Below, piece after piece: positions 22,856 to 45,603 of a stretch of DNA of 64,000 bases. This DNA is from Haloplanus sp. HW8-1 (GTDB lineage Archaea > Halobacteriota > Halobacteria > Halobacteriales > Haloferacaceae). Numbering within the stretch: position 1 is the first letter of the stretch; the number at the start of each line of letters is the position of its first letter. The notes below the pieces were generated by a model. The model searched no databases and was not told the DNA's origin. It saw nothing but the letters and a program-made list of their open reading frames with translations. The translations under genes were made by a program, and so were the position numbers. The DNA is taken from positions 3,348,001-3,412,000 of the forward strand of contig NZ_CP098518.1 of NCBI RefSeq assembly GCF_023703795.1. The letters are read 5' to 3'.

Positions 22856-24148
22856 TCAGCTTCCCGCTGCCGACTGCATTTCGCGCCAGATCGACATCAT
22901 CTCTTTTTCATCAAACAGTCCCTCGTAGAAGACGCTGCGTTCCAGTGCAGTGTCGAGATATTCCAGATCCAGTACGTTCTTCGTGTTTTCACTGTATTTT
23001 TCTCGAACGCCCGCGTGTGGAACCGTGACTGGTGTCTGAACGGACAACTTGTAGGCAACGTCTGGGCTCATCATCATCGCTGCGTAGTTGTCGCTAATCC
23101 GTGGGTGGTTGCCCTTTACGAATGCGGTTGTTTCGACCCAAATCACACCCTGCTTGACACCGTCAACCGCCTGGGGCACGTACGTCCTGAAGTTCATTGC
23201 GCCTTCGTTTCGTATGATGTTTGCCACCAGGTTGGGGAACCCGATTGCAATATCGAACTCACCGGCTGACATCGACTGTGCCACTGACGGATACGAATCG
23301 AGAACCGAGGCGTTCTCGGCCAAGGCGAGCCCTGCTTCCCGAATGTCTTGTATTTCTTGTTCGCTGTGACTCTTGAACGGATTGATGCCCTCCCTCTGCA
23401 TGACTGCAATCATGTTGAAAAAGAAGGACCCACCGTTCAGGACGACATCGTATTGGTCCGAATACGCGACATCGTACCCTTGGTCTGCAATTTCTGCGTC
23501 ACCGACGGTATCCCGGTTGGCAATGATACCGAAGTATCCGAACCGTTGCGGGAATCCGTAGAGTTGTCCGTCCTGGTCGAAGGTCCAGTCCTCCTCGTTG
23601 ACGAAGGTGAACTTGAAATCCGAGTTATCCGGGTGGAAAGCATCGAGCAATGGGTCGAAAATATACGGTTCCCACGTCTCGTAGTCCATCGGGCGAACCA
23701 ATCCGGCTTCTGCGAACCGTGGCAGCCAGGCATTGTCGACGGTGACGTGGTGCCAGTCGCTCCATTCACCTGACTCAAACCGGTTGAATACCTCCGTATC
23801 GCTCAGGTGGAGCTCAACGTTACTCTCCATATTGAACGTGTCTTCGATCGGGCTCTGCACCTCCTCTACCTCGTATCCTGCCCATGTCATATGGTTGATA
23901 GTTTCCGAGTTTTCCTCCTCCCAACTGCTCGGTTCGTACAGGATCTCGGATTCGTCCGGAGCCACGACCGGTGACGATTCTTTGTCCATCCAAGGCATCT
24001 TCCCGCTGGTCGAGTAGTCCGCCTCGGTCTCTCCGCCATTGTCTCCTCCGTTGCTGCCCAGGCATCCAGATAGCGCGAACGTCGCCGCGCCGAGACCTGC
24101 TGCTCTCAAACATGACCGCCTTGTTACATTTTTCTCTGTCATTTTCAA
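22856..24148 (-). CDS. Polyamine-type ABC transporter substrate-binding lipoprotein
   Basis: A 430-residue binding protein of the spermidine/putrescine (PotD-like) class. The N terminus has a twin-arginine signal (TRRSCLRAAGL) and a lipobox FALSGC, so it is exported folded by Tat and anchored by lipid outside the cell. The body has the alternating segments of this family, e.g. LYGFPQRFGYFGIIANRDTV and FDIAIGFPNLVANIIRNEGA. The first ATG is at 24148, with a second at 24142. It lies about 17 kb from its probable permease and ATPase, at the opposite border of the gene set, an unusual split. The ligand is inferred to be a cationic amine or its conjugate. Confidence 0.85.
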   Translation of the reverse strand: MKMTEKNVTRRSCLRAAGLGAATFALSGCLGSNGGDNGGETEADYSTSGKMPWMDKESSPVVAPDESEILYEPSSWEEENSETINHMTWAGYEVEEVQSPIEDTFNMESNVELHLSDTEVFNRFESGEWSDWHHVTVDNAWLPRFAEAGLVRPMDYETWEPYIFDPLLDAFHPDNSDFKFTFVNEEDWTFDQDGQLYGFPQRFGYFGIIANRDTVGDAEIADQGYDVAYSDQYDVVLNGGSFFFNMIAVMQREGINPFKSHSEQEIQDIREAGLALAENASVLDSYPSVAQSMSAGEFDIAIGFPNLVANIIRNEGAMNFRTYVPQAVDGVKQGVIWVETTAFVKGNHPRISDNYAAMMMSPDVAYKLSVQTPVTVPHAGVREKYSENTKNVLDLEYLDTALERSVFYEGLFDEKEMMSIWREMQSAAGS

Positions 24149-24532
24149 TTCTCGATTTACTGTTTCGATTGTGCTACAGTAAGCACTTTATAATCCAATT
24201 ACAAATAGGTTTTGGTCATATTTGTGGCCAATTGCACATGTCTACAATCGTTAATTAGACATTTATTTGTGTGCCCGTAACTCAGGACGGATCGAGCCGT
24301 TCGGACCGTCGGAATTCCATCCCCACCATGGCGGCCAGAGACTCCCTCAGAGCCTCAAGAGGACCGTGGTGTTTTGAGCCACCGAACTGCCCGGCCTGTC
24401 GTCAGGCCGGGACTGACGTAGACGGTCCGTATCAGTCACGATGACCTGAAAGCCGCCGAATTATGGCTCCTGGCCTTCGCTTGCTGGCACGATATAATGA
24501 ACTAAACACTAGCCGTGCAATCGTCGAAAACG
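24149..24532. promoter_or_regulatory. Divergent promoter region with hairpin
   Basis: AT-rich sequence just after 24148 carries a TATA-like TTATAAAG (minus strand, near 24186-24193) for the binding-protein gene. CCCGGCCTG (24390-24398), a 4-base loop and CAGGCCGGG (24403-24411) form a strong hairpin between the two divergent genes. No gene is seen. Confidence 0.5.
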
Positions 24533-24538
24533 TTATAC
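24533..24538 (+). promoter_or_regulatory. TATA box of the aldehyde dehydrogenase gene
   Basis: TTATAC lies 24-29 bases before the GTG at 24562. This spacing, with no room for a leader, is what decides the start codon. Confidence 0.55.
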
Positions 24539-24561
24539 AGACCGGTTCAGTACGAATTTCT

Positions 24562-26007
24562 GTGCACTATCCACTTTCAATAGGAGGACGACAACGTAGT
24601 GTTGATCGTCGGATCGATGTCGAGAATCCGGCCACTGGTGAGATCGTTGGATCGGTTGGCAGCGGTAACCGAAAAGATGCCGTGCAGGCAATCGAGGCTG
24701 CAAGGGACGTAGCTCGCACGTGGCAACAAAGCGACCCACACGAGCGCGAACGGGCGCTGCACGCCGTGGCCGATCGGATCGAGAACGACGTCGAAGAAAT
24801 AGCCCGTCTGTTGAGCAGGGAGACGGGCAAGTGCCTCGGGACAGCCGAAGACGAAATCAGAGAAACTGTCAGCCAGTTTCGGTTCTATGCGGGAGTCACC
24901 GACAAAATTAGGGGGAGTACGATACCGACGCCGACCGACCGGTTCAATTACACCCGGCGCGCACCATACGGTGTCACCGCACACATCGTGCCCTGGAATT
25001 ATCCCGTGCTTATCGGGTCACGAAGCATCGCTACCGCACTCGCTACGGGGAACACAGTCGTCACGAAACCGCCGGGCAGTGCTCCACTGAGTACGATGTG
25101 GTACGGCGAGTATCTCGTCGACGAGTTCCCCGACGGGGTAGTCAATATTGTTCCCGGTCCCGGGAACGAGGTGGGGGCCGAACTGACGGAGAACGGTGAC
25201 GTAGACGCCATCAGTTTCACCGGATCGAACCGTATCGGTCAACGTGTAATAGAGTCGGCGGCCAAAAACATCGTCCCGGCAGATGTAGAACTCGGGGGCA
25301 AGTCGCCAGCGATCGTTCTCCCCGACGCCGATCCGACAGAGGCTGGCGTCGGAATCGCGACGGGCATTTTTTCGAACACCGGCCAGAACTGCGTCGCCAC
25401 CTCCCGGCTCATCGTTCACGAAGAGATCAAACAAGCGGTGGTAGAAGAAATCGTCAGGCAGGCAGAGTCGATCGAACTTGGACCCGGAACCGATCCGAGT
25501 ACCGGTATGGGACCGGTCATTTCTGCGTCAGCACAGAAGGACATGCAAGCGTACGTTGAGATGGCCAAAGAAAGTGGAGCAACATTACTGACCGGCGGCA
25601 CGATACCCAACGATCCCGACCTCAGCGATGGGCACTTCTTTCAGCCGACCGTGTTCGACGACGTGGAACCGGACGACCGCATCGCAAACGAAGAGATATT
25701 CGGTCCGATACTGTCGGTCATTTCAGTCTCAACGGTCGAAGACGCAATCACTGTCGCCAACGACTCCCGGTACGCTTTGGCAGCGAGCCTCTGGACGGAG
25801 CGTCTAGAGGCAACCACCATAGCCGATCGGCTTGATCACGGAGTGGTCGCGGTAAACTCTTTCCCGGTCACGATGCCACAGAGCCCTTTCGGCGGAAACA
25901 AGGAGTCGGGTATCGGCAGAGAGGGGGGACTGGAGGGTGTCAGGGCTTTCACCACCGTCGATAGTGTCATCGTAGATCACAGTGAGATGGGAACAGGGTA
26001 CCGATGA
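24562..26007 (+). CDS. NAD(P)-dependent aldehyde dehydrogenase
   Basis: A 481-residue ALDH superfamily enzyme. The cofactor and substrate core includes VTAHIVPWNYPVLIGSRSIA and SFTGSNRIGQRVIESAAKNI. The catalytic residues are Glu243 in VELGGKSPAIV and Cys277 in NTGQNCVATSR. FGGNKESGIGREGG near the C terminus is also typical. The frame is open to an ATG at 24463, but the promoter and the family N terminus favour GTG 24562. Within this gene set it most likely oxidises an amino-aldehyde made by the aminotransferase. Betaine-aldehyde-type specificity cannot be excluded. Confidence 0.92.
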   Translation: MHYPLSIGGRQRSVDRRIDVENPATGEIVGSVGSGNRKDAVQAIEAARDVARTWQQSDPHERERALHAVADRIENDVEEIARLLSRETGKCLGTAEDEIRETVSQFRFYAGVTDKIRGSTIPTPTDRFNYTRRAPYGVTAHIVPWNYPVLIGSRSIATALATGNTVVTKPPGSAPLSTMWYGEYLVDEFPDGVVNIVPGPGNEVGAELTENGDVDAISFTGSNRIGQRVIESAAKNIVPADVELGGKSPAIVLPDADPTEAGVGIATGIFSNTGQNCVATSRLIVHEEIKQAVVEEIVRQAESIELGPGTDPSTGMGPVISASAQKDMQAYVEMAKESGATLLTGGTIPNDPDLSDGHFFQPTVFDDVEPDDRIANEEIFGPILSVISVSTVEDAITVANDSRYALAASLWTERLEATTIADRLDHGVVAVNSFPVTMPQSPFGGNKESGIGREGGLEGVRAFTTVDSVIVDHSEMGTGYR

Positions 26008-27429: not shown

Positions 27430-28203
27430 CTACTGGCGCTGGTATCGGTCGTAACCCTCGATCACCCGTTCGATTTCCTCAACGAAATCGAACAGCTTTT
27501 CGGGAATATTTTGAAAAAACATCTCCTCATCGGCACGGTAAGTTGGCTGTCCGAGACTGACGCCACCGAGGATCCCCCCCTCCGAATCGTGTATGAGCAT
27601 TCCAATGGCACGGAACCCCTCGTTCAGTTCCTCCTCGCTGACACCGAATCCACGTTCACGCACTTCGTCCAATTCCCGCCAGAGTTCGCCCTCGTCCGTT
27701 ATCGTCTTCTCCGTTTGTTTCGGTAGACCCCATCGATCAATGATGGCGCGCACCCGGTGGTCGGGGTATTCCGCCAACATTGCTTTGCCGACTGCTGTGG
27801 TGTGCATATAATAATAGTCGTATATCGGATCGTTATCAGGACCGACCTCGGTGAGCAAGGAAATGAGACGTCCGTGTTCTTCGACGTTGAAATCTGCTTC
27901 GTCGTATGGGTTATCGACAAGATTGTGTAACCGTTCCTCAACGGCCTGATAGCGCCGATCCTGGGATTTTGCCTCGGTTCCGACACACAGAAACTTGAGT
28001 CCGAGGTGATACTCATTCTCCTTCTTGACGAGGAATCCGTGATATCTCAACGTCGTAAGATGTTGGTGAACTGTTGACTTGGGCATATCGAACGTCTCGG
28101 CCAGTTCCGTTACCCCGACGGGACCGTGGTCCATTAGATAGTCAACGATCTCTAGTGACTTCCCCGTCGTGCTCAGCGTTCGTCCAATGTCGAGATGTGT
28201 CAT
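27430..28203 (-). CDS. IclR-family transcriptional regulator
   Basis: A 257-residue IclR regulator. The winged helix is at about residues 8-62 (LEIVDYLMDHGPVGVTELAE, then STVHQHLTTLRYHGFLVKKE), and the C-terminal effector domain contains YYYMHTTAVGKAMLAEYPDH and GVSEEELNEGFRAIGMLIHD. The ATG at 28203 is 27 bases from a TATA box; an upstream ATG at 28329 would place the promoter inside the gene. IclR regulators usually sense a small catabolic substrate. This one most likely controls the amine/amide genes, but no operator was identified. Confidence 0.9.
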   Translation of the reverse strand: MTHLDIGRTLSTTGKSLEIVDYLMDHGPVGVTELAETFDMPKSTVHQHLTTLRYHGFLVKKENEYHLGLKFLCVGTEAKSQDRRYQAVEERLHNLVDNPYDEADFNVEEHGRLISLLTEVGPDNDPIYDYYYMHTTAVGKAMLAEYPDHRVRAIIDRWGLPKQTEKTITDEGELWRELDEVRERGFGVSEEELNEGFRAIGMLIHDSEGGILGGVSLGQPTYRADEEMFFQNIPEKLFDFVEEIERVIEGYDRYQRQ

Positions 28204-28225
28204 GTGTTGGCCCAGGATGCGCGTA

Positions 28226-28234
28226 GTTATATAC
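28226..28234 (-). promoter_or_regulatory. TATA box of the IclR gene
   Basis: GTATATAAC on the minus strand, centred 27 bases before the ATG at 28203. It supports the chosen start and a leaderless transcript. Confidence 0.6.
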
Positions 28235-28310
28235 GTTTGTATATTACGAAAAAATGTACCCCGGGAAAGTAAACGCCCCAGCTGTTCCCACTGTTGTCGG
28301 ATACCCTCGT

Positions 28311-28440
28311 CGTGGGGTGTTGGCCCCACGGACTGGAGATGGCGGAACTCTTCGTCTGGAACGCGTTCCCGAGCGACGATCAGAAGGCACTCCTCGAGGA
28401 GTCAGTCGAACTGATCGTCGAACTGACCGAGATCCGTTGA
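28311..28440 (+). other. Hairpin and orphan 3-prime coding remnant
   Basis: CGTGGGG (28311-28317), a 6-base loop and CCCCACG (28324-28330) form a hairpin. An open frame ending at 28440 then reads ELFVWNAFPSDDQKALLEES and VELIVELTEIR. This amphipathic protein-like segment has no proper start and looks like the tail of a lost gene. The family was not recognised. Confidence 0.35.
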
Positions 28441-29176: not shown

Positions 29177-30532
29177 ATGAGCGATACTGAGACTGAGAGA
29201 GACCTGACCGGAGGCGAGACAGAGAGAGAAATGACCGAAAGCCAAAAGCTCCACGAGGAGGCACATTCAATCTTTCCTGGTGGGGTGTCCCACGACATAC
29301 GGTGTGACTTTGACCCGTATCCGTTCTACGTTACGAAGGCAACGGACTCCCGAGTGTGGGACGTTGACGGAAACGAATACGTTGATTTCTGGAACAACCA
29401 CCACGCCAGTGTTCTCGGTCATTCCTACCCGGATATTGTCGAGGCAGTCAAAGAGCAAGCCGAGAAGGGACTCCACTACGGGTTCACAAACGAAAAAGCA
29501 CTCAGATTAGGCCAAAAAGTCAGGGAATATGTTCCCTCGGTCGAACAGCTACAGTTTTGTGTCACGGGCACCGAGGCGACCATGTACGCAGCGCGGCTCG
29601 CCAGAGCACACACGGGCGGTGATTACATCCTCAAGGCGGAAGGGGGATGGCACGGTGGTAATTCGGAGTTCATGGAAGCTGTGCATGTCCCGTTCGACGA
29701 ACCGACGACGAACGGGCTAGCGCCGGGTGTGGCCGAACATCTCGAGTCATTCCCGGTCAATGATCAAGAGGCCGTTCTAGAATTCCTTGAGGCCCACCGC
29801 GGGAATGTCGCAGCGGTTATTCTTGAGCCGATGCTGGGTGGTGGAGGCGGATTGGAGTGTGACGAGGAATTTCTGCAGTTCCTCGAAGACGCAAGCGAGG
29901 ACTTCGGGTTCGCATTCGTATTGGACGAGGTAGTCACTGGGTTCCGGACGTCGCCAGGTAGCTACCAAGCACGGGTAGGAGTCTCGCCCGACCTCACGAC
30001 GTTGGGGAAGTTCCTCGGTGGAGGGCTAGCTGTCGGGGCAGTAGGGGGTCGTAGTGAGTTCTTTGAGGCGGCTCGACCAGACATTGAAGTCCCCGCCGAG
30101 GAACGTGTGAGTACCGGCGGTGGGACCTTCTCAGCAAATCCATTGATGGCAGCAGCGGGACTTGCCGGACTCGAAGTCGTCGAAACCGAACCCGTCTACG
30201 AGTATATAGAGTCACAGGGCGAACGGATCCGCGAGGGTCTGCGACGCATCTTTGACGACCTGGGTGTTGAATGTCGAGTTCTCGGGATGGGTTCGTTCTT
30301 TATGCCACATTTCAAACCGGAGACGTCCCTGGATACCGTCTACGATATCGAAGCACGGACCGATCGGAGGGCAATAAAGGAGTTCCACAACCGCGTAACT
30401 GATCGTGGGTATGCGATTCTTCCCGGTCACCTGGGTAACGTCTCGTATCAGACATCCGAAAAACAAATAGATGGGTTCCTCCAGACAGCCGAGGCCGTCG
30501 GTCGTGAAATGAAAAGTGAGGGCATCTTGTGA
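29177..30532 (+). CDS. Class III aminotransferase, HemL-like
   Basis: A 451-residue PLP enzyme of the glutamate-1-semialdehyde aminomutase/omega-aminotransferase group. Asp250 in FVLDEVVTGFR contacts PLP nitrogen, and Lys278 in TTLGKFLGGGLAVGAVGG is the Schiff-base lysine. FCVTGTEATMYAARLAR and TGGGTFSANPLMAAAG are typical. Overall it is closer to HemL-like aminotransferases than to PatA. In haem synthesis hemL would not sit here; between an IclR regulator and an acetylpolyamine hydrolase, a role in moving the amino group of an amine or amino acid is more likely. The first 20 residues are an acidic extension. Confidence 0.88.
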   Translation: MSDTETERDLTGGETEREMTESQKLHEEAHSIFPGGVSHDIRCDFDPYPFYVTKATDSRVWDVDGNEYVDFWNNHHASVLGHSYPDIVEAVKEQAEKGLHYGFTNEKALRLGQKVREYVPSVEQLQFCVTGTEATMYAARLARAHTGGDYILKAEGGWHGGNSEFMEAVHVPFDEPTTNGLAPGVAEHLESFPVNDQEAVLEFLEAHRGNVAAVILEPMLGGGGGLECDEEFLQFLEDASEDFGFAFVLDEVVTGFRTSPGSYQARVGVSPDLTTLGKFLGGGLAVGAVGGRSEFFEAARPDIEVPAEERVSTGGGTFSANPLMAAAGLAGLEVVETEPVYEYIESQGERIREGLRRIFDDLGVECRVLGMGSFFMPHFKPETSLDTVYDIEARTDRRAIKEFHNRVTDRGYAILPGHLGNVSYQTSEKQIDGFLQTAEAVGREMKSEGIL

Positions 30533-30711: not shown

Positions 30712-31890
30712 ATGGACGAAAAAACGGAACTGAGCGTCTACTGTGACGATGTCTGTCTGGAGCATACGATACCGGAGGGTGTCTCCTACAGGGGATCTAC
30801 AGACATCATTCCGGTGAATTCACCCCATCCGGACCAACCGGACCGGATAAGAAACATCCGGGGAATCATCCAAAACACGCTCTCAGAGTACGCAGTGTGG
30901 GAAGATATAACGCCCGCAACTACTGAACAGCTCGGTACTGTCCATGACCCCGACTATATCGAATCGGTAGCCAGGTTCTCCGAACAGGGGGGTGGCTGGT
31001 TCACAACTGATGGCACGGGCGGGAACGAAAAGACATACTTGGCAGCAAAACACGCTGCAGGAGGAGCTATTCAGGCAGTACGGCAAGCAATTCAGGGGGA
31101 TGAGACTGCCGTGCCGTATGCTCTCGCTCGTCCATCGGGCCACCACGCACAGCCCTCGCAGGCGGACGGGTCCTGTTTTTTTAATAATGCAGCAGTCGCA
31201 GCGGAGATTGCATTGAACGAAGAATCAGCCGAGAGAGTTGCCATCCTTGACTGGGACGTGCATCACGGTAACGGGACTCAGGAGATTTTTTATGACAGGG
31301 ACGACGTTCTGTGTATCAGCATTCACAACGGACACGGGTCGTGGAACTCTGTGTCTCACCCCCAGACCGGCCGCCCAGCAGAGTGTGGAACCGGTTCGGG
31401 TGAAGGATACAACGTGAACATTCCGGTGCCGTTCGGAACCGGAAATCAGGGTTACGGGTACGTGTTCCACTATCTCGTTGAACCGATCATATCCGAATTT
31501 GACCCGGATATACTCATCGTCAGCAGTGGAACCGATGCGGGGTGTATGGACCCACAGGGGCGGAATCTGGTTACGATATCGGGATTCAACCAGCTCGGAC
31601 GAATCGCAAGACGGTTGGCACGGGAGTATGCCGGGGACAATCTGGCGATCATCCAAGAAGGGGGATACAACCTCAACCAACTCGCATTTGGCACATTGGC
31701 TGTACTTGAAGGGGCACTCGGGATTACTCTGGATTTCAGTGATGAACCCGAAGACTGGCACGACGATCCCTTCATGTTTTACGATCATGAGAACCTTGAT
31801 GGAGTCGTCGAGGCGGTTCATGACGTTGGATCACAGTATGCAAGATATTGGCCACTCGTGTTCTCTTCGAGAGAGACGTCCTGTGGATGA
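30712..31890 (+). CDS. Acetylpolyamine amidohydrolase / class II HDAC-fold deacetylase
   Basis: A 392-residue arginase-fold zinc hydrolase. The paired general-base histidines are His144-His145 in ARPSGHHAQP. The zinc ligands are Asp182 and His184 in LDWDVHHGNGTQEIFY and Asp275 in SSGTDAGCMDPQG. The transition-state tyrosine is Tyr319 in IQEGGYN. All catalytic positions are therefore present. The substrate-loop segment SISIHNGHGSW-like (CISIHNGHGSWNS) is closer to polyamine deacetylases than to histone deacetylases. It would remove acetyl from an imported N-acetyl amine. It is 180 bases after the aminotransferase and precedes the glutamine-synthetase-like gene. Confidence 0.88.
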   Translation: MDEKTELSVYCDDVCLEHTIPEGVSYRGSTDIIPVNSPHPDQPDRIRNIRGIIQNTLSEYAVWEDITPATTEQLGTVHDPDYIESVARFSEQGGGWFTTDGTGGNEKTYLAAKHAAGGAIQAVRQAIQGDETAVPYALARPSGHHAQPSQADGSCFFNNAAVAAEIALNEESAERVAILDWDVHHGNGTQEIFYDRDDVLCISIHNGHGSWNSVSHPQTGRPAECGTGSGEGYNVNIPVPFGTGNQGYGYVFHYLVEPIISEFDPDILIVSSGTDAGCMDPQGRNLVTISGFNQLGRIARRLAREYAGDNLAIIQEGGYNLNQLAFGTLAVLEGALGITLDFSDEPEDWHDDPFMFYDHENLDGVVEAVHDVGSQYARYWPLVFSSRETSCG

Positions 31891-32127
31891 CGGCCCCCGG
31901 TACTCCGGTCAGGAGTGTGAAATCGGGCGTATGAATGGTCCTGATTATGATGCTGTGTTCGGGCCGGACTGGCACGACTCGGCCCGAAAATATCAAAAAC
32001 CACTGGACAGGACCTGATCCGCGATGGTACTGTGGCTGTAATTTTTGCGGGTCAAGACCGGGTTTGCCCGGTGGAAATACTGCGTCTAATACAAAAATAT
32101 AAATATGTATATCGAGACTGTTCGTCC

Positions 32128-33489
32128 ATGGGCGACGATGAAAAACCTCCGATAGTGGAAGGGGAGAATGGAATATTACTACAATTTCACGATCTGAGTG
32201 GATTTCCACGAGGTATGTATATCAATGAAGAAGAGTGGGAACAGGCACAGACAGACGGTTTCAGTTTCGGACCTATGGTCACGGAATGGGTGGAGAATTA
32301 CAATACCAGGGGCGTCGTCGAACCGATGCAATTCACCGCAAACGAGGGCTATATGAACGCGATAGCCGACCCGGACACGCTGGTTTCGGTCCCGTGGCGG
32401 GAAGGGAACTGCCGGAAGGCGATATGTGATCTGGAGAATACAAACGGTTCCGATTTCGAACTGTGTTCCCGATCAAAATTGGCGAAAGCAGTCGACAGTT
32501 TGGCGGAACTCGGTTACGAAGCGAAGGTCGGATCGGAGATTGAATTCAATCTGCTGACCGAGTTTGAAACTGATCGATTACGGAGGGAAGGAACCGATTA
32601 CATCGAAGAAGCAGCCACTTCCGATCTGGGTGCTGTCTATCACTTGCGGCCCTTAGAGGAGCGAAGCAAGTACTTGAGTGAACTGAACGCCGTAATGAAA
32701 CAGATGGGGTATAAAATAGAGGGGCTCCACAAGGAAAGTTCGCCAGGGATGTTCGAAGCACTTCTTCGATATACGGACGCTGTCCACCAAGCTGACGCAG
32801 TAGCCACATTCAGATTGTCAGCCCAGGCGATCGGGCGACGTCACGGCCTCACTCCGATTTTTATGCCGATGCCGATGTCGGATTACGAAGGCAACAGCCA
32901 GCACTATCATATCAGCCTCTGGCAACACGGTGAGAACGCGTTCTACGATCCGGACGGATCCGAAGACGTAGCGGATGTGGCATACCACTTCATCGGTGGC
33001 GTTCTGGAACACGCAAAGGGGATTACAGTTCTATGTGCGCCGACAGTCAATTCCTACAAGAGACTCCAACCCGGGATGTGGGCACCTGTCAACATAAATT
33101 ACGGACACGATAACGCATCCACCATGATCCGTATTCCCACACCCAGAGAGGAGGGAACCAGGGTGGAAATCCGAATCCCGGACAACTCTGCGAACCCGTA
33201 CCTATCCCTTGCCGGAATACTCGTAGCCGGTGCTGACGGAATCAAAAACCGGATCGATCCGGGCGAACCGTCCGAGGAAGACGTGTACGAAGCAGAGTCG
33301 GATGACTACCGGCAACTCCCGGACTCGCTCGGTGAAGCAGTGGACGCACTGAACGAAGATACGTTCCTGTGTGACTTCCTGGGTGAAGAATTGATCAACC
33401 AATTTTCTCGACTTAAGAGGGACGAAGCGAGGCGTTACAACCAAGCAGTTACCGATTGGGACGTCCGGGAGTATATAAATAGAATGTAA
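32128..33489 (+). CDS. Glutamine-synthetase-like ligase (gamma-glutamyl-amine synthetase candidate)
   Basis: A 453-residue member of the glutamine synthetase superfamily. KVGSEIEFNLLTEF carries the metal-binding Glu pair, FMPMPMSDYEGNSQHYHISL replaces the usual GSGxHxHxS loop, and NSYKRLQPGMWAP and RVEIRIPDNSANPYLSLAG are conserved. The altered metal/glutamate loop (NSQHYH) points away from ammonia-assimilating GS and towards the branch that couples glutamate to amines. A TATA-like AAATATAAAT at 32095-32104 sits 24-33 bases before the ATG at 32128; a GTG at 32032 would include the promoter. The amine used is unknown. Confidence 0.85.
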   Translation: MGDDEKPPIVEGENGILLQFHDLSGFPRGMYINEEEWEQAQTDGFSFGPMVTEWVENYNTRGVVEPMQFTANEGYMNAIADPDTLVSVPWREGNCRKAICDLENTNGSDFELCSRSKLAKAVDSLAELGYEAKVGSEIEFNLLTEFETDRLRREGTDYIEEAATSDLGAVYHLRPLEERSKYLSELNAVMKQMGYKIEGLHKESSPGMFEALLRYTDAVHQADAVATFRLSAQAIGRRHGLTPIFMPMPMSDYEGNSQHYHISLWQHGENAFYDPDGSEDVADVAYHFIGGVLEHAKGITVLCAPTVNSYKRLQPGMWAPVNINYGHDNASTMIRIPTPREEGTRVEIRIPDNSANPYLSLAGILVAGADGIKNRIDPGEPSEEDVYEAESDDYRQLPDSLGEAVDALNEDTFLCDFLGEELINQFSRLKRDEARRYNQAVTDWDVREYINRM

Positions 33490-35437: not shown

Positions 35438-36444
35438 AGCGCGTCCAGCACCTCGTCGGCGTCGAACCGCACCGGATCGGTCGCAGGCGCGTCGATTGCG
35501 GCCCCGTACTTCTCGACCGCTTCCCGGGCCTGGTCGTCGCCCTCGATGAATCGGGTATTGAGTGCACCCGCGACGATGTCGGTCTCGTGAAGTGGCGCGG
35601 TCAAGCGCTCGTAGAGGTCGACGTACTCGGTGGGGTGAGGGATGGGGAACGACTCGTACTTGCGGATGTTCTCGCGGCCGGCCTCGTGACACAGCACCAG
35701 CGAATCGGGCATCGACCCGTGGAGGATGGAAAGCGTCACCCCCGAGTACGCGGGGTGGGTGATTGATCCCTGTCCCTCGACGAAGAGGTAGTCGTGGTCG
35801 GCGCGCTCCTCGACCATCCGCTCGACGGCGCCGGCGGTGAAGTCGCTGATGGTGCGGTCGACGACGGTGCCGCTCCCCTCGACCATCACGCCCGTCTGGC
35901 CCGTCGGGACCGCGGCGGCGTCCCAGCCACGCTCCCGGGCCGCCTCGAGTAGCGACCACGTCGTCGTCATCTTGCCAGTTGAGCAGTCCGTTCCCACCGT
36001 GAGGACGATCTCGGCGTCAACCTCGCGGGCAGTCCCGTCGGCGACGCCCAGATTGGCTGGTGGCTTGCGGACGTCCCACAGCTCGACGCCGTGCTCGTCG
36101 GCCAGCCGGGAGAGCTGTTCGTCTTCGGAGAGAAAATAGTGGAGGCCCGCGACGACGTCGGCGCCCTGTTCGATGGCACCGTTGATGTCGGGACGCCAGC
36201 TCTCGTCGAGGCCGCCGCCGATGGGTGCAATGCCGATTATCAGCCGGTCGATATCGCCCGGGACGTCCTCGATGCCGGCGACGACCGGCGAATCCTGGAC
36301 ATCCGGGAGGTAGTCGTGAACCCTGTTTCCAGCGGTGTCACGGTCAAGCACCGCTGCGACATCCTGGTCCCCGTACCTGAGGACTCCGGCCGCCGTCTTA
36401 GCGTCGTCTGGGAACTTTTCATGTGCAAGGATCGCTACGCGCAT
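35434..36444 (-). CDS. dgcN: DUF1611 family protein (DgcN-like N-acetyltransferase)
   Basis: A 336-residue DUF1611 protein. The N-terminal Rossmann-like part has IGIAPIGGGLDESWRPDING. The P-loop GTDCSTGKMTT is at residues 151-161, followed by PTGQTGVMVEG and FVEGQGSITHPAYSGVTLSI. In the DgcN-DgcA scheme this protein N-acetylates D-glutamate before racemisation and deacetylation. Other family members are annotated only as NAD-dependent epimerase-like, so the activity is inferred. It is the first gene of the pair, with tandem 9-bp repeats in its promoter. The pair is more GC-rich than its neighbours, suggesting a separate origin within the island. Confidence 0.82.
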   Translation of the reverse strand: MRVAILAHEKFPDDAKTAAGVLRYGDQDVAAVLDRDTAGNRVHDYLPDVQDSPVVAGIEDVPGDIDRLIIGIAPIGGGLDESWRPDINGAIEQGADVVAGLHYFLSEDEQLSRLADEHGVELWDVRKPPANLGVADGTAREVDAEIVLTVGTDCSTGKMTTTWSLLEAARERGWDAAAVPTGQTGVMVEGSGTVVDRTISDFTAGAVERMVEERADHDYLFVEGQGSITHPAYSGVTLSILHGSMPDSLVLCHEAGRENIRKYESFPIPHPTEYVDLYERLTAPLHETDIVAGALNTRFIEGDDQAREAVEKYGAAIDAPATDPVRFDADEVLDAL

Positions 36445-36721: not shown

Positions 36722-38345
36722 TTACTGTGCTTTATCGACCCCGTAGATCTCCACATCGAGATCAAGCAACTCAAGAACGTGTGACGGAATATCAACATTT
36801 TCTGGAAGCACACGCTCGCCGTCGACACGACTGACGAGCATGTTCTCGAACCGCTGGAGGACACGGCGTCCGGTGGACCGATAGGTACTCGGCCCATCGG
36901 ACAGTTCCATTGGTTCATCTCCGTCCATGAGAGCGAGTCGCGCACGCCGTTCGATCAACGAATACACCAACAAAGCCATGACCAGCACGTATCCTAGCGC
37001 TTCGATCCGCTATTCATTCTTCAGGTAGACGGCTCCAACACGCTTTGGATCTTTCACCACCGGAAAGCACTGTTCGACGGTGATCTGCTGTTTGTACTCT
37101 TCAAGCACACGCTCATCCGGCCACTCTTGTTTATTTTCGAGGCTCGTAACCAGCACGTAGCAACTCTCTCGTTGTTTGTAAGTGGAGATCGCCGCCGCGT
37201 CCCGCTGGACGTCGGCGGCGATTTTGTACTCTGTCTCGTAGGGATCCCACTCCTTCGGCGGCCGACCAGGTTTGTCACGACTCTTTTTTTGCTCGGTCTC
37301 AACGACTTCTGCCTCAATCTCGAAACACTGCTCTTGATGATCCGTGAGCCACGTCTCACGCTCCTGTTTTGCGTCTCGCTCACACGCGAAGACGCGGTCT
37401 GAAAGTTCTTCAGCCGCGTCTTTGAGTTGTTCTTCGGTGGTATCTAACTCCTTGTCGATGCGCTTCTCGCTCCGTCCATCGATTGTGGACGGTTTCACGA
37501 CAACGCAGCGCATCTCTTGATCGGAGATCGTCTCGGTGAACGAACGGATTTCGTGAGAGACAGCGTCCTCCTGTTCTGCGACAGGGCCGATGTCACGCCA
37601 GTCGCCATTGTCCCACGCGCGGTCGATGAGTTCATCGACCGCCGCGTACATGCCGGGAAGGCGGGAGATGAGAGGCAGTTCCTGCTCGCTTGCTCGGGCG
37701 AGGTTCTCAGCAGTGACAGCCTTGCTGTCTGCGACATAGACGATCGATTCGTCAGTGGGCAGGCACTGACGAATCTCAGAGATAACTTCTTTGTTCCAGG
37801 TCGTGTCAGCACCGTTTCCGTCAAAAATGTCGTCGACAACAGGAACGCCACGATGTGTCACACCAAGGCCGATGTTGAACAGTTTGAGTTGGCGGTTTCC
37901 GTCGCGGCTGTATCCTTTCGCTATATTTAGATTTTCTTGCGTTCCGTCCTGTTCGTACTCACCATGGACCGACTTGGAAGTTGCGTCGGCGTGGACAACG
38001 CCGATGTCCACGCCTTCTGTCGTGATTGCTTTAGCAATCTCAGAGTTGAGAACTTGGCGTGGTCAAGCATCCGAAATTTTGTCCAGTGCCCACCCAAATC
38101 GCTGATCATAGAGGTCCTCCGGAGAGATATCGTCACCAAAGAGGTTCCCCGGATTTTTGTTTTCAAAAAAGTCGGAGAGCCGATACATCGGCTCTCCTTC
38201 GGTCAGGAAATTCATCACGAGACCAGCAGTCAGCAACCCCGGAGAGATATCTGCCTGCTCTTGATCCCACTCAACACTCTCATCAATTACTTCGATAATC
38301 CCACTCCTGACAGATCGCGTGAATAACCGGCAATGGACCGGGTGC
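36722..38345 (-). pseudogene. IS1634/IS4-type transposase with several lesions
   Basis: The longest open piece (37010-38011) reads VVHADATSKSVHGEYEQDGT, then VYVADSKAVTAENLARASEQ and QQITVEQCFPVVKDPKRVGA, the DDE core of the ISH-type IS1634 group. It stops at TAG 37010-37012, then continues in frame as RIEALGYVLVMALLVYSLIE to 36722. Upstream, a TGA after FGWALDKISDA and a shift near 38305 separate it from NFAPGPLPVIHAICQEWDYR. At least three lesions make it long dead. Confidence 0.8.
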
Positions 38346-38742: not shown

Positions 38743-41094
38743 CTACGGGTTCGATTCTGTGGGGAGAGACCCATCACTCATGAATTCTCTGAGAACGTTT
38801 TCCGTAATCTGTGACACGCTGTTGTCCGTTCCATCGACCAACAAGGATTCGATCCACGCCATAGACCCGACCGAGAAGACCCCTCCATCTTCGGGAGTCC
38901 GATAGTAGACGATATCGGCACGAACTTCAGGATCGGTTCGACCGTCACGGTAGGGAACGTTGCACTGTAACTCCTCTATGACACGGTGACAGTTCTTTGA
39001 ATGGCCAATCGAGGCGGCGAGCACGTACGCGTCTTCGGGTGAGCCCAGCGCGGTGTCGTATCGGTCGACTTCACCGCTAGCTGGACCGGTGGGCTCGCCC
39101 CCGCCATCCCTCTCGCTAGTGTCAATCGTATCACTGTCGATACCCTGGAATATGAACGAAACCTCGCGCCGATAACTATCTGGAAGGCGATAATAGGGCC
39201 GTCCATTGATCTCGTACTGGCCACTGAACCCAACACCGACTAACTTCTGTGGCGCCCATCCCCGTTTCGTCCACAGTCCGCCTTTTTTTCCCGTGAATTC
39301 GTGATAGCGTTCCCCCGGTTCCGGTATCCACGCCTGTTCCCCGACCTCCCCACGACGCACTTCGATGATGGGTTTTTTTGAATGATAGCCTGTGACCCAG
39401 TAGAATCCGTTCCCCCCGAGATACATGAATCGACCACCCTGTCTCTGGTACTGTTCTATAGATGTCATTATTCTGCCAGTCGGGTACTCGGGATGGTGAC
39501 CACTGACCACCACCCTGTACGGGTTCAATATTTCCTCTCCGTGTTTGTGGATGTCGTCGTCGGTAACCACGTCGTACTCGAAACGTTTCGTTTCGAGCCA
39601 CTCCAGCAGATACAAATCGACGTTGATACCCAGTTGAGAGACTGTCTTGCTGGGACCGGAATCGCTTTCGAACGACGGTGCGATGTTGATCAACGGTCGA
39701 CAGCGAGACGAAAACATTGATCCGCTACCGTCGACATGTGTGTCATAAACAGACAGGCCGTACTCCCGGTGGGAACTCAAAAATAGATCATCCTCGTTCA
39801 GTACGGGCACCATCCCCGAAAACGTCTCGCCTCCGAAGTCTTGGTTCGCGTCTACGGTTTGGAAGTGGTCATTCGCGTATGCAAGGTACGTGTTGGTAGG
39901 CAGGTACACTGCGATGGGTGCAGTTGCTTCTCCGAGACGGGATTTGACAAAAAACTGCACGAAATACTCGTCGTGTGGCGTCATCAGACGGGCGGCGTAG
40001 GCGCCGCTGTCGAAGTCCTCCGGGACCTGAAACGTGAAGTCACTCTCCCAATCAGCGTCGGTCATATCGTCTTCGTGAAACCGGATCGCGCCGTACTCTT
40101 CGGGTGCCGACGTAAAGTCGACAGACTCCCCTGTCCAGTTGTGGCCCGGTACTGCGCGTGCTGGCAGATTGACTGCATATCCGTCGAGACCGTGGGGTCC
40201 TGTGTCTACGACTGTTTCTACCGAAGTGAACCCGTCTTCAGTAACGTTGGCAGTAAAGTCCCAGACTGCTACCGTCGATTCCGTAGAGCGAGCGGGGACT
40301 TCGGGATTGGGGGTCGCTCCATCAAACGCGTCTATCGCCTCGTCCAGCACACGTGGGGATTCTATTTTCCCCGTGAAATGCCCGTCAACGCTGGGCGTGT
40401 CTACACCGCCCTCATGGACGTAGCCAGCCATGACGAGGGGCGTCTCAGAACAGGCAACTGTCCCAGTTGGAATGGATGTTTGCGTCCGATGATTCCGCTT
40501 TTGGTCGGGAGTTACTGACTCGTGTCCCGTAATCAATTGCTCGCACGACAGCGTCAACCGACCCCCGTCCGTATCGACGGACATCGACACGAAATACCAG
40601 TCGTCTTCGGACAGAGGGGCGTCAACGCGAGCGCGCTCAATACGCCCGTCTTCGAGCGACACCTGTGCGACCAAGCAACCCTCCCCGTTGACGAACAGAC
40701 CGTATCCTCTCTCCGTCGTGCTGTTCCACTTTGTCAACAGTCCGTCTTTTCCCGCCCCGAGGTGTGTTGGACAAACCAGTACCTGTAGGGTGAACGTTTC
40801 CTTGAACTGCAATGCGGGATCATGTGGAACGACGACGTGAGAGCCGGATTCGATAGTTCGAACGGTCCCTTCGTACATTCCACTCACGTGGGTCTCGGTG
40901 ACGAGTGTCTCGGAGCGAGGGTCGGCGACACTTTGGTTGGTGCGGGTGAGTTCCACGATATCGGCACGGAATCTGTCCGGCTCACAACTCACTCTGAAAG
41001 GAAGTGTTTCACCCGGGGCGACACTCCACTCGTCGCAGTACCCGACGACTTCCCGCTCGGAGAACGTTGACTCTAGTTCAGTGGCTTCTGTCAT
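38743..41094 (-). CDS. N,N-dimethylformamidase-like large subunit
   Basis: A 783-residue protein resembling the large (about 760-residue) subunit of bacterial dimethylformamidase. An N-terminal beta region includes a LamG-like segment (about residues 65-215, with FTLQVLVCPTHLGAGKDGLL and DDWYFVSMSVDTDGG). The C-terminal hydrolase part contains YLPTNTYLAYANDHFQTVD, LYLLEWLETKRFEYDVVTDD, VVVSGHHPEYPT and GGRFMYLGGNGFYWVTGYH. In the studied enzyme, tyrosines and a glutamate bind mononuclear iron; such residues are plentiful here, but I do not assign positions. It overlaps the small-subunit gene by 17 bases. It likely hydrolyses an N-substituted amide; the natural substrate is not known. Confidence 0.82.
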   Translation of the reverse strand: MTEATELESTFSEREVVGYCDEWSVAPGETLPFRVSCEPDRFRADIVELTRTNQSVADPRSETLVTETHVSGMYEGTVRTIESGSHVVVPHDPALQFKETFTLQVLVCPTHLGAGKDGLLTKWNSTTERGYGLFVNGEGCLVAQVSLEDGRIERARVDAPLSEDDWYFVSMSVDTDGGRLTLSCEQLITGHESVTPDQKRNHRTQTSIPTGTVACSETPLVMAGYVHEGGVDTPSVDGHFTGKIESPRVLDEAIDAFDGATPNPEVPARSTESTVAVWDFTANVTEDGFTSVETVVDTGPHGLDGYAVNLPARAVPGHNWTGESVDFTSAPEEYGAIRFHEDDMTDADWESDFTFQVPEDFDSGAYAARLMTPHDEYFVQFFVKSRLGEATAPIAVYLPTNTYLAYANDHFQTVDANQDFGGETFSGMVPVLNEDDLFLSSHREYGLSVYDTHVDGSGSMFSSRCRPLINIAPSFESDSGPSKTVSQLGINVDLYLLEWLETKRFEYDVVTDDDIHKHGEEILNPYRVVVSGHHPEYPTGRIMTSIEQYQRQGGRFMYLGGNGFYWVTGYHSKKPIIEVRRGEVGEQAWIPEPGERYHEFTGKKGGLWTKRGWAPQKLVGVGFSGQYEINGRPYYRLPDSYRREVSFIFQGIDSDTIDTSERDGGGEPTGPASGEVDRYDTALGSPEDAYVLAASIGHSKNCHRVIEELQCNVPYRDGRTDPEVRADIVYYRTPEDGGVFSVGSMAWIESLLVDGTDNSVSQITENVLREFMSDGSLPTESNP

Positions 41095-41479
41095 ACTCGT
41101 TTTCGTCCGCGAACGTGTCTTTTAGCTGCTCGATTCGCTTGAGGAACACCGCGTGTTCAGCCTCTTCCCAGGAACCGTACCGTTCTTCCTCGAGAAGTTC
41201 AGGTCGGTCACCGCGAACGCCGCTCAATCTGCCAAGTGTGAACTGCCCTGGAGGGGTTGCGACGATCACCAGTCGTCCCTCGACTGGTTGCCGCCGGAGG
41301 AACGTCAAGATGCGATGAAGTTCGGTAGAGTGGTCTCCGAACGGGTCCTCTCTGTGCTCTTTGATCAACTCCTCAGAGAGTTTTGGCAGGATATCTTCTC
41401 GGGCGATTCGCTCATAGGCTTCGTTTTTTATTTTACGTTCCGCCTGAGTACCTTCGTAACTGTAATTTGTTGTATCCAT
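41078..41479 (-). CDS. N,N-dimethylformamidase-like small subunit
   Basis: A 133-residue basic/acidic helical protein with LRRQPVEGRLVIVATPPGQF and TLGRLSGVRGDRPELLEEER. The size and position, directly before and overlapping the large subunit, match the 132-residue light subunit of bacterial dimethylformamidase. The overlap of 17 bases implies fixed stoichiometry. The promoter lies in the AT-rich 113-base gap after the permease gene, with TATA-like sequences on the minus strand. Confidence 0.8.
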   Translation of the reverse strand: MDTTNYSYEGTQAERKIKNEAYERIAREDILPKLSEELIKEHREDPFGDHSTELHRILTFLRRQPVEGRLVIVATPPGQFTLGRLSGVRGDRPELLEEERYGSWEEAEHAVFLKRIEQLKDTFADENEYDRSH

Positions 41480-41592: not shown

Positions 41593-43311
41593 TTAATCTT
41601 GCTTTTTATCCCTTACTTCTAGTATAAATACAATAACAATGAATGGTATTATAGAATAAATGATCATAGCTGTGAACGCCGAAACGACTGGGTCGTACCC
41701 GAACGCAATCTGTCCTCGTATCCAGGTCGTGACCGTGTCTGTGGGCCCAGACAGGTAGGCGGATATGTAGTAGTTATTCCAAGACAGGATGAATGCAAAA
41801 AGAGCACCCGAGATGAGTCCATTAGAGACGAGGGGGAGGGTAATCTCCTTGTATTGCGTATAAAACCCGGCACCAAGGTCCTTTGCTGCTTCTTCGACGT
41901 GTGGGTCAATTGCGATGGCTTTCAGAACTACGACAAACATGACGATGGGTGACATCCAGGTCGTGTGACCGAGGATGGTAGCGAGAATACCTCGTTGTAT
42001 TCCCAACAAGTCGAACCAAAGTGCCATCGCAAGGCCGGTCAGCAGCAAGGGGAAAAATATGGGAAGCAGGGCACCAATTTTGAAGGCTTCCCGCCCTCTG
42101 AACTGGTAGCGAGCGTATCCGATTCCAGCGGCACCGCCGATGAGAGTGGACAGTATCGTTACCGGGATGGCGATCTTGAGAGAGGTACCAACGGCGTCGT
42201 AGACAGCCCCCGATGTCACGGCTGCCATGTACGATTCGAGAGTGAATTTGTAGGGGAATGTGAACGCAACCCCATCGTAAAATGACGCAGTGATGACACC
42301 AAGTATCGGCAGGTTCAGAAAGACCACAGTCAGGAGTACGTATCCATACCAGACTGCTGATTCAGCACGCGAAGTGTGCTGATCCGTGGTTTCAGTTGCA
42401 CCGCCAGAGCGGACGGCAATCTCTTCAAGACTCACGATGCGTAGAATCACCACACCCGCCACGAGTGAAACTAGGAGCAAGAGTATCGCTTTGGCGGATC
42501 CCATCGGCCAGTCCTGAACGAATCCGAACGAACGCTTGATGTCGGTCGCGACCGTTGCTATGGCGTTTCCTCCCAGCATGGACGCCTCTATTTCCGCGCC
42601 CGTGGAGAGGATGAATACGAACAGTGTCCCGATTATTACCCCCGGTTTGGACTGTGGAAGTATGATCCGGCGAAACGTGACCAATTTGCCCGCTCCCAGA
42701 TCACGCGCAGCCTCGATCACTGAGGGATTTATATTGGCAATTGATAAATATATTGGGAACAACATGAACGGCAGATATATGTAGGTTGTGCCCAGAATCG
42801 TAGCCCCCTCGGTGTACAGGAGTGATGGCATTGATCCCGAAAAGAGCGTGCTATAGAGGGTCGAAATTATACCGTCTTTGACGAGGAACACCGTCCATCC
42901 GTACACACGCATCACGACGCTGGTCAACAAAGGCATGATCAACAGCATCAGAATGGGTCGACGGAACCGAGTGATTTTCCGTCCGAGTGCATATGCTGCG
43001 GGATAACAGACGAGCAGAGAAATACCGGTAGTGATCACTCCAATCCGAAAGCTGTTGAAGAGAAACTCCTTGTACAGCTTGCCTTGGAATATCTCCACGT
43101 AGTTGCTTACCGTCCAATCTGCCAATGTGAATGTGTTACTTGGCTGTAGGGAGTACAGAGCCAAAATAGTCATCGAACCGACAAATACGGTCGAGATCAA
43201 AAGCACATATGATGATAGCAACAGATGATGAGTTTCCGTTTTGTCTCTGACTACGTCGTAGACCCTGCTTTTCTCGGATACTTTCCTGTATAGGGATTCG
43301 ATCGTGCTCAT
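41593..43311 (-). CDS. Fused PotB-PotC-like ABC permease
   Basis: A 572-residue protein with about 12 transmembrane helices in two homologous halves, joined near residues 300-320. Each half has its EAA loop for the ATPase: EAARDLGAGKLVTFRRIILP in the first and EEAAKDLGAGFYTQYKEITL in the second. In most bacteria the spermidine/putrescine permeases are two genes; here they are one polypeptide, as in some iron (FbpB-type) transporters. It begins 3 bases after the ATPase stop. With the binding protein at 22.9 kb it completes an importer. Confidence 0.9.
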   Translation of the reverse strand: MSTIESLYRKVSEKSRVYDVVRDKTETHHLLLSSYVLLISTVFVGSMTILALYSLQPSNTFTLADWTVSNYVEIFQGKLYKEFLFNSFRIGVITTGISLLVCYPAAYALGRKITRFRRPILMLLIMPLLTSVVMRVYGWTVFLVKDGIISTLYSTLFSGSMPSLLYTEGATILGTTYIYLPFMLFPIYLSIANINPSVIEAARDLGAGKLVTFRRIILPQSKPGVIIGTLFVFILSTGAEIEASMLGGNAIATVATDIKRSFGFVQDWPMGSAKAILLLLVSLVAGVVILRIVSLEEIAVRSGGATETTDQHTSRAESAVWYGYVLLTVVFLNLPILGVITASFYDGVAFTFPYKFTLESYMAAVTSGAVYDAVGTSLKIAIPVTILSTLIGGAAGIGYARYQFRGREAFKIGALLPIFFPLLLTGLAMALWFDLLGIQRGILATILGHTTWMSPIVMFVVVLKAIAIDPHVEEAAKDLGAGFYTQYKEITLPLVSNGLISGALFAFILSWNNYYISAYLSGPTDTVTTWIRGQIAFGYDPVVSAFTAMIIYSIIPFIVIVFILEVRDKKQD

Positions 43312-43314
43312 ATA

Positions 43315-44379
43315 TTACTCCGTTGTCAGGATAGCCGACTCAGGATCCCACTGAATATAACACTCATCTCCCTCGGACAAGCCCCGCTCGTGGACGCGAT
43401 CATATGGCATCTCTGAGACGTATCTGTTGGCCCCGTCCAGGGACGTCGTCTCCACGATTGCGTTATTTGATTTGAACATTATGCTATCTATTTCGACAGC
43501 GAGGGACGTCGCCTCTGTTGGGTCGGGTCGTACCTCACACTGGGTATGTCGTACAACCATATGGGTGAACTCGCTGGCAAGATCACTTCGAGCAGACAGT
43601 TTAATTTCGGTATCCAGGCTGTCGCTAATTACCTCGATGTGTCCGTTCGTTCTGCTTTTGACGCTGATGGGGAAGATGTTGGCATCGCCCATGAAGTCAG
43701 CAACAAAGCGCGTTTCTGGCTGATTGTAGATCTCGCTCGGAGTTCCTTGTTCGACTATAGTCCCCTGATTCAGAACGATAATACGATCGCTCAAAAGCAT
43801 CGCGGCCTCGAGGGAGTGAGTGACGTATACGAAGGTGCGTCCCAATTTGGTTTGGAGCCTGGTGAGTTCACGCTGGAGTTCCTTACGAAGGACATAATCG
43901 AGAGAGGCCAGAGGTTCGTCCAGGAGCAAGATGTCCGGTTCGTACGCGAGAGAGCGTGCAAGCGCCACTCGCTGTCGTTCCCCACCACTCAACTCAGCCG
44001 GGTTTTTATCGGCATACTCTTCTGGATCTAATTGGACTCTTCGTAGCCACTTGTCCACCTGCTGGGCATCCCGATCTTGGAGCCGAATGGGAAACAACAC
44101 GTTTTCCCGGACGGTCAGGTGAGGAAACAGCGCTAGAGATTGAAAGACCTGACTGGTTGGCCGTTGTTGTGGAGACGTGTCAGTGATATCTTCCGACCGC
44201 AGTTCTATCGTGCCGTCTGTTGGAGACAAATGACCAGAGAGAATCCGGAGAATCGTCGTTTTGCCCGACCCGCTAGGCCCGACTAGCGAAACGAACTCCC
44301 CTTGGTCTATGTCGAAAGAGACGTCACTAACCGCTTCTGTCTTTCCATACTGCTTGGTTAGGTTCCTTATTTGTAGCAT
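43315..44379 (-). CDS. PotA-like ABC transporter ATPase
   Basis: A 354-residue ABC ATPase of the polyamine/iron/sulfate import class. Walker A is GPSGSGKTT (residues 34-42), then QVFQSLALFPHLTVRENVLF (Q loop), signature AELSGGERQRVALARSLAYE, Walker B ILLLDEPLASLD and the switch His in VTHSLEAAMLLSD. A TOBE-like regulatory domain fills residues 235-354. The ATG at 44379 begins MLQIRNLTKQYG; an open extension to 44502 covers the promoter (TTTTATAC near 44416). It is the first gene of the operon with the fused permease. Confidence 0.92.
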   Translation of the reverse strand: MLQIRNLTKQYGKTEAVSDVSFDIDQGEFVSLVGPSGSGKTTILRILSGHLSPTDGTIELRSEDITDTSPQQRPTSQVFQSLALFPHLTVRENVLFPIRLQDRDAQQVDKWLRRVQLDPEEYADKNPAELSGGERQRVALARSLAYEPDILLLDEPLASLDYVLRKELQRELTRLQTKLGRTFVYVTHSLEAAMLLSDRIIVLNQGTIVEQGTPSEIYNQPETRFVADFMGDANIFPISVKSRTNGHIEVISDSLDTEIKLSARSDLASEFTHMVVRHTQCEVRPDPTEATSLAVEIDSIMFKSNNAIVETTSLDGANRYVSEMPYDRVHERGLSEGDECYIQWDPESAILTTE

Positions 44380-44611: not shown

Positions 44612-45451
44612 TCAGCGGTCAGCCATCTCGATCGCGCGTTCGATGTTTCGCATCGCTGATTTCATGACAAGTTCGCTGAATTCACCGAACCACGTTCTCG
44701 CCCACAGCGTCTCACCGTACCGCTGCCGCAAGCCGAAAAACACCGATTCAGCGTTCGAACGCTGGTTGTACGCCCGATTGTGGATGAGTAAGTTTCTCGC
44801 CCATCCTCGGAAATCTGGATCGCGTTGCGGAATCAGCGGTGTGATACGTTCAGCACGTAACCGCGTCCGAAGTCCTTCCCAATCATATCCTTTATCCGCC
44901 GCTACAGCCGTCAATTCGTCGAGATTCCGCACCAACACCTACCAACTGACCTGGGTATCGTGCGGTTGTTTCATCGAGCAGTGTATGTCTAGAATCGCAC
45001 TCGTTTCACAATCGACGAGCAGCGTGGTCTTCACCGCCTCGAACGTGTAATCCGTCCGTTTCGCGTAGTGCTGGCTCGCTTGGATACGATCCACGCCGGT
45101 TGCGTCGATTGCTTGGACATCTCCGAGTTCGTACAGTTCGACCGACGCGTCGAGGATCGCCCGCCACCGCTTCATCGGAATCGCTTGCTTCCGCGCACAC
45201 ACGGTCGAGAAGTGAAGGAGTGTCTCAACCGTCAAACCGAGCGATTCCGCGACTCTCGGTATTTCTTGCAGAACATCCATCAGCTTCCGGTAATCGTGGT
45301 TGAGATACTCTTTGAAACCCTGAACAGCGAGAATCACCCAGTCGGCATACCCCTCTTTCCCGGGTCGGTATGCCGGAGCTGGCTCGCCAGCGACGGCTTT
45401 TTTGGAGAGCGAGACAACCATCTCTGCGAAGCGGGAGGTCTTGGTTTGCAT
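44612..45451 (-). pseudogene. IS5-family transposase with one nonsense codon
   Basis: The first part reads VILAVQGFKEYLNHDYRKLM, then VQAIDATGVDRIQASQHYAK (first Asp) and ILDIHCSMKQPHDTQVSW. A TAG at 44939-44941 replaces what is usually Gln, and the frame goes on as VLVRNLDELTAVAADKGYDW (second Asp) and NQRSNAESVFFGLRQRYGET (Glu). One base change from an intact 279-codon gene. Just outside it, ACTAGTAT-AGGA-ATACTAGT at 45504-45523 is a perfect dyad. Confidence 0.87.
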
Positions 45452-45603
45452 ACCCAATCCGTCCCGCTTCACTACCTAGTAGATTTGGTACTTCGTTGGA
45501 ACTACTAGTATAGGAATACTAGTGCAACAACCTTCAGACTGATCGAGTCTCACTGCCTAGACAAGGCCGATCCTCTCTGTTCAGCATATGGCTTCTATCA
45601 GCT

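Follow-up and report, generated by a model that had tools for sequence, protein, structure and literature searches.

A predicted two-subunit dimethylformamidase-type iron amidohydrolase in a putative amine-catabolic island of Haloplanus sp. HW8-1

N,N-dimethylformamide (DMF) is an industrial solvent that was first made in 1893 (PMC7686228). Since it is man-made, the natural purpose of the Tyr-Tyr-Glu iron enzyme family to which dimethylformamidase (DMFase) belongs is a question, and a DMFase-type gene pair of the haloarchaeon Haloplanus sp. HW8-1 raises it in a particular setting: on which amide would such an enzyme act next to an importer and genes of amine breakdown? The answer matters because a haloarchaeal member in a defined amine-degradation island would offer a short list of assayable natural substrates. 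It would also link the natural chemistry of the DMFase family with archaeal amine breakdown, which is largely unmapped and of which PMC8394153 shows only the first step, a glutamate-putrescine ligase. The DNA examined here (hereafter the window) is a stretch of 64,000 nt from a genome of 3.8 Mb, in which open reading frames (ORFs) were called mechanically. The features discussed are collected in Table 1.

Table 1. Features of the window that bear on the role of the DMFase-type pair (positions within the window)
Feature	Position	Strand	Remarks
Solute-binding lipoprotein, probable importer partner	22856..24148	-	SBP_bac_8; orthologues beside importer relatives in 11/11 loci
Aldehyde dehydrogenase of the putative amine module	24463..26007	+	Aldedh 518 bits; 61-71% identical copies in 7/11 relative loci
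IclR-family regulator	27430..28329	-	
Class III aminotransferase, GSAM/beta-transaminase-like	29177..30532	+	AT3 homologues near 12/16 HDAC-like relatives
HDAC-like amidohydrolase	30712..31890	+	Hist_deacetyl 260 bits; PDB matches
GS-like ligase, probable gamma-glutamyl-amine ligase	32032..33489	+	Gln-synt_C 358 bits; below GlnA cut-off
IS1634-family transposase remnant	37010..38011	-	Profile positions 130-406 of 483; downstream of large subunit
Large subunit, predicted DMFase-type iron amidohydrolase	38743..41094	-	783 aa; Pfam DMFA2_C; phmmer to 6LVB
Small subunit, predicted DMFase-type amidohydrolase	41078..41479	-	133 aa; phmmer to 6LVB_B, E 8.3e-10
Fused PotB/PotC-like permease of ABC importer	41593..43311	-	572 aa; BPD_transp_1 twice
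PotA/PhnT2-like ABC ATPase	43315..44379	-	ABC_tran; ORF from 44502, the ATG at 44379 being the likely start
IS5-family transposase pieces	44612..45472	-	Upstream of ATPase

An earlier note on this DNA had proposed a two-subunit DMFase-like enzyme from the sizes of two genes (133 and 783 codons), their order and their 17-base overlap. Both ORFs were found, sharing bases 41078-41094, and both match chains of the Paracoccus DMFase (DmfA1/DmfA2; PDB 6LVB). In the profile search, the large chain reached 273 bits with Pfam DMFA2_C against a cut-off of 27 (residues 313-752), together with a weak Laminin_G_3 match at residues 84-182. Using phmmer on the PDB sequences, its residues 16-778 were aligned with residues 6-760 of 6LVB (E 1.1e-128), at about 33-35% identity, and the second-best solved match was 8HUY, an N-acetyl-(R)-beta-phenylalanine acylase. 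The ORF pair is predicted by this homology to encode the small and large subunits of a DMFase-type iron amidohydrolase. The small chain is 46-54% identical to the small subunits encoded next to other haloarchaeal large subunits, and the fact that the small gene adjoins the large one in 4/4 haloarchaeal members argues indirectly for a complex of both chains. An AlphaFold model of the large chain, built from three sequences, was too poor for use (pLDDT 33).

In the Paracoccus enzyme, Y399, Y440 and E521 bind the iron, while H519 is essential for catalysis (PMC7686228). Mapping of residues to DMFase predicts Tyr406, Tyr450 and Glu536 as the Fe ligands of the window large chain and His534 as its catalytic residue, N562 being the equivalent of the catalytic Asn547. 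The two iron-ligand tyrosines and the glutamate, whose conservation had been suggested as a check, are therefore all kept together with the histidine, and no ligand loss was seen. Indeed, the equivalents of Y399, Y440, E521 and H519 are invariant in 107/107 family members of the alignment. The window protein deviates at 6/95 near-invariant columns, which is within the range of other members (five deviations in the reference DMFase, more than the window's in several others) and indicates that it is no decaying copy. Judged from its sequence, the pair is predicted to be a functional DMFase-family amide hydrolase with a mononuclear iron centre.

Besides these residues, the window pair shares with the Paracoccus enzyme a two-subunit composition, the gene order and whole-length homology. 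The two systems differ in their surroundings, the Paracoccus genes lying on a small plasmid together with a LuxR regulator whereas the window has an amine module and an importer, and in their sequence, with about one third identity. F693, the aromatic residue that closes the DMFase pocket, aligns with Cys711 of the window protein, although in a loop that is variable and poorly conserved in the family. The substrate is not readable from family membership, since AceAB of Pigmentiphaga, a two-subunit DMFase relative, is an acetamiprid amidase without DMF activity (PMC11573777); this pesticide-degrading enzyme is likened to the window pair by description.

In a 107-row FastTree phylogeny, the large chains of the four haloarchaea group as one clade (local support 100) within a 22-row clade (support 100) that also includes the true DMFase, from which they are set apart by long branches. 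They are separate from the clade of the beta-phenylalanine acylase and from the GS-linked bacterial members. The window protein belongs to a rare haloarchaeal clade that groups near true DMFase. DMFase-like members occur in 4/392 genomes of the host's order (the host and 391 others), with none in the five other genomes of the same genus, and a scan of viral contigs for further homologues returned none. In Alphaproteobacteria, 86/387 genomes carry family members, often several per genome and with very varied neighbours.

This phylogeny bears directly on two alternative substrates. A true DMFase or N-methylformamidase, which would act on methylated formamides beside an unrelated importer, seems improbable to us, if not negligibly so. 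In its favour, DMFase is the nearest solved relative, it is found in the same supported 22-row clade and it is itself halophilic, with an optimum at 2.5 M NaCl (PMC7686228). Nevertheless, about 33-35% identity across long branches is a distance at which other homologues such as AceAB have other substrates, F693 aligns with a cysteine, if in the poorly conserved loop, and no methylamine or formate genes are present among the annotated neighbours. It is still less probable that the pair is an N-acyl amino acid acylase that deacetylates, for example, N-acetyl-glutamate coming from the DgcN/DgcA-like pair at 34394-36444. The 8HUY acylase does have the same type of large chain and the same ligands, and DgcN and DgcA profiles match these adjoining genes, albeit below cut-off. 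However, the window protein falls outside the acylase clade, the acylase is a single chain (the deposited entries are without small subunit), an IS remnant lies between the genes in the window, and the neighbourhoods of the other haloarchaeal members showed no DgcN/DgcA-like pair, so that a link of DgcN/DgcA with the DMFase-like pair was rejected. The DgcA/DgcN-like genes (N-acyl-amino-acid racemase and DUF1611 acyltransferase) are located between the GS-like and DMFase-type genes, and their GC content of 0.64 is above that of the surrounding island.

A polyamine-type importer had been described directly upstream of the pair on the same strand, as an ATPase and a fused permease. Both genes are there (41593-43311 and ORF 43315-44502), and the Pot-like character of the permease is borne out by its best NCBIfam matches, PotB, PotH and PotC, all below cut-offs. 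The ATPase scores 305 bits with PhnT2 and 296 bits with PotA, both under cut-off. The importer may work like a polyamine PotABC importer, with the reservation that the curated PotA/PotB/PotC cut-offs are not reached. Its permease halves are joined in one 572-aa frame, while the nearest relatives have two separate genes. An AT-rich gap of 113 bp separates the permease from the small subunit, and one transcript for importer and pair is possible. From this adjacency, the earlier note had deduced a charged or polar amide as natural substrate rather than the solvent. The substrate is probably other than the solvent, as is suggested indirectly by the whole amine module and by the hydrolase and aminotransferase genes close by. 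The argument from the importer is not supported in this form: adjacency alone is no proof of amide import, since the importer relatives of 11/11 haloarchaeal loci serve amine modules without DMFase, and it is weak as an argument because DMFase-family genes also lie beside many unrelated transporters (branched-chain-amino-acid, oligopeptide, ribose-type, TRAP, APC and AmiS). The cargo of the importer may be the free amine instead of an amide, and a polar, amine-derived substrate would be suggested by the whole module and not by the neighbouring importer.

The module became apparent from the 20-kb neighbourhoods (about 10 kb on each side) of the best 11 haloarchaeal permease relatives. In all 11 loci, one cluster holds orthologues of the window binding protein (38-44% identity), ATPase (49-53%), permease (46-53%) and GS-like ligase (33-40%); an aldehyde dehydrogenase (61-71%) is present in seven, and a DMFase in none. 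The window binding protein had no match among solved structures. A GS gene is expected by chance in about 2% of 20-kb stretches, given 4 GS-like loci in the 3.8-Mb genome. The binding protein, aldehyde dehydrogenase, GS-like ligase, permease and ATPase of the window are, on this comparative ground, putative pieces of one module, dispersed over 22 kb and both strands. The seven loci with an aldehyde dehydrogenase also have an M81 metallohydrolase beside it and an iron alcohol dehydrogenase, in clusters composed of binding protein, ABC genes, HTH10 regulator, GS-like ligase, aldehyde dehydrogenase, M81 and iron alcohol dehydrogenase, with GcvT in 3/7; such a cluster reads like a candidate route from gamma-glutamyl-ethanolamine to glycine. 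In the other 4/11 loci, the same importer and GS-like ligase stand beside ethanolamine ammonia-lyase-type genes that resemble EutA/EutB in sequence, probably as an ethanolamine module in haloarchaea.

The GlnA stretch DGSS is absent from the GS-like ligase of the window. At the place where GlnA of the same genome reads PGYEAP, the ligase reads PGMWAP, a W replacing the essential Glu of GlnA. Both ammonium-site residues, Asp50 and Glu327, are missing. GlnA-2 of Haloferax mediterranei, which makes gamma-glutamylputrescine, is likewise without D50 and E327 (PMC8394153), and the window gene is probably a gamma-glutamyl-amine ligase of the GlnA-2/PuuA type. The haloarchaeal glnA-2/PotABC module (PMC8394153) resembles the window in placing such a ligase beside ABC transporter genes but has no DMFase pair, and the ligases are 33-48% identical among the compared loci.

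Directly upstream of the GS-like ligase and on the same strand are the aminotransferase and HDAC-like genes, the latter from a family that includes acetylpolyamine amidohydrolase as well as dimethoate and propanil hydrolases. HDAC-like relatives were found in 39/392 genomes, including three of the four in which a DMFase-like pair occurs (p 0.003 in a hypergeometric test, with few genomes). In the neighbourhoods (~10 kb) of 16 haloarchaeal relatives, a PotABC-type transporter occurs in 13 and an aminotransferase in 12. The HDAC-like enzyme, the aminotransferase and the Pot-type importer make up a recurring amine or acyl-amine set, a recurrence that suggests a widespread breakdown of acyl-polyamines in haloarchaea.

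Within this company, the role that we propose for the pair is to split a small-acyl (formyl- or acetyl-type) amide of a diamine, polyamine or amino alcohol inside an acquired amine-catabolic island, feeding the module; we consider this reading about equally likely to be right or wrong. The importer, with the binding protein at 22856-24148, would bring in the amine or its amide. Hydrolysis of the amide at the Fe(III) centre would give a carboxylic acid and the free amine. The GS-like ligase could then gamma-glutamylate this amine and/or the class III aminotransferase could transaminate it, and the aldehyde dehydrogenase would oxidise the resulting aldehyde. DMFase works on amides with a small acyl group and a substituted nitrogen, an unsubstituted carbon being preferred (PMC7686228). 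A front-end role on small acyl groups is favoured because DMFase takes formyl and little else on the carbonyl side and because the HDAC-like neighbour comes from a deacylase family. Several points weigh against the proposal. The module genes are scattered across 22 kb and lie on either strand, the pair may be transcribed from a promoter of its own, and the HDAC-like enzyme could already be doing the deacylation. In addition, a GS gene is found in 2/80 alphaproteobacterial DMFase-like neighbourhoods, so that GS linkage is no family trait, and within 10 kb of the DMFase-like genes of the three other haloarchaea there is no Pot-type importer, GS or aldehyde dehydrogenase of the window type. A search of the available literature collection for DMFase together with polyamine breakdown found no report; the enzyme type is already known and the setting of the window pair is new.

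A back-end position in the same module was also considered. The GS-like ligase would form a gamma-glutamyl amide that the pair could hydrolyse after oxidation, so replacing PuuD in a Puu-like pathway, which we regard as unlikely. It is marginally more doubtful that archaea gamma-glutamylate amines in a route whose missing amide hydrolase, in place of PuuD, is this pair, which would be a new role and a new acyl specificity for the iron enzyme family. A PuuD encoded in the genome was sought and rejected, matches to its family (PF07722) being weak and partial only, and the window has no counterpart of the M81 metallohydrolase that stands beside the aldehyde dehydrogenase in 7/11 module relatives; the back-end role would explain both absences. 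DMFase, moreover, has a catalytic domain that resembles ThuA and class I amidotransferase folds (PMC7686228), and some bacterial loci combine a DMFase-like pair with GS and aldehyde dehydrogenase. Such a role would, however, need a large charged acyl group, whereas the acyl groups handled by known DMFases and by the acetyl-amino-acid acylase are small and DMFase leaves little room at the carbonyl carbon. That M81 would be the amide hydrolase is itself conjectural, an M81 is kept elsewhere in the genome, and GS linkage is rare in the family.

The bacterial loci in question are three, each with a DMFase-like pair, a GS gene and aminotransferase and/or aldehyde dehydrogenase genes, and 2/3 also with PotABCD. 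They lie on rhizobial and rhodobacterial plasmids, the two with PotABCD also having a P1 peptidase, and represent a second, distant hydrolase lineage in similar gene company, which also speaks for the front-end role proposed above. Close kinship of the window protein with these GS-linked members was ruled out by the tree, their common gene company not being due to common descent of the hydrolase. A rule of GS or aldehyde dehydrogenase linkage for the family was likewise dismissed, GS being found at about background level in the 80 alphaproteobacterial neighbourhoods and aldehyde dehydrogenase in 4/80.

Between ~10 and 48 kb of the window, the GC content is 0.51-0.64, mostly 0.51-0.57, against 0.65-0.72 in the flanks, and this low-GC stretch holds several transposase genes, with IS remnants (37010-38011 and 44612-45472) flanking the DMFase-importer segment. 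The low GC, the transposases, the bracketing remnants and the patchy distribution point to an island acquired horizontally. What the window holds may be viewed as a single amine-catabolic module, dispersed within an island that is low in GC and rich in IS elements, to which the DMFase pair and the aminotransferase/HDAC-like pair have been added. We give little credence to the pair simply travelling with a mobile island and having no functional tie to the genes around it. The nature of the island, the absence from the five other genomes of the genus and the different neighbours around every other haloarchaeal member would agree with it, but the genes are intact, close to the importer and on its strand, and amine genes recur near haloarchaeal and Rhodococcus members. 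Among the neighbours in the DMFase clade are a primary-amine oxidase in Halalkalicoccus and a primary-amine oxidase with an ethanolamine permease in Rhodococcus. The Halalkalicoccus jeotgali plasmid pair (NC_014299) is, as in the window, haloarchaeal and two-subunit (41% identity) with an IclR regulator nearby, but adjoins the amine oxidase and not a Pot-type importer. Related IclR genes adjoin 2/3 other haloarchaeal DMFase-like genes.

Finally, the same genome holds, at ~3.005-3.010 Mb, a broken ordinary module of which the iron alcohol dehydrogenase, M81 and aldehyde dehydrogenase are left. Its GS and binding protein end at a common breakpoint, and nothing is left of regulator, permeases and ATPase, as after one deletion. 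A third GS-like gene, 48% identical to that of the window, is located near 1.89 Mb with a different Pot-type importer.
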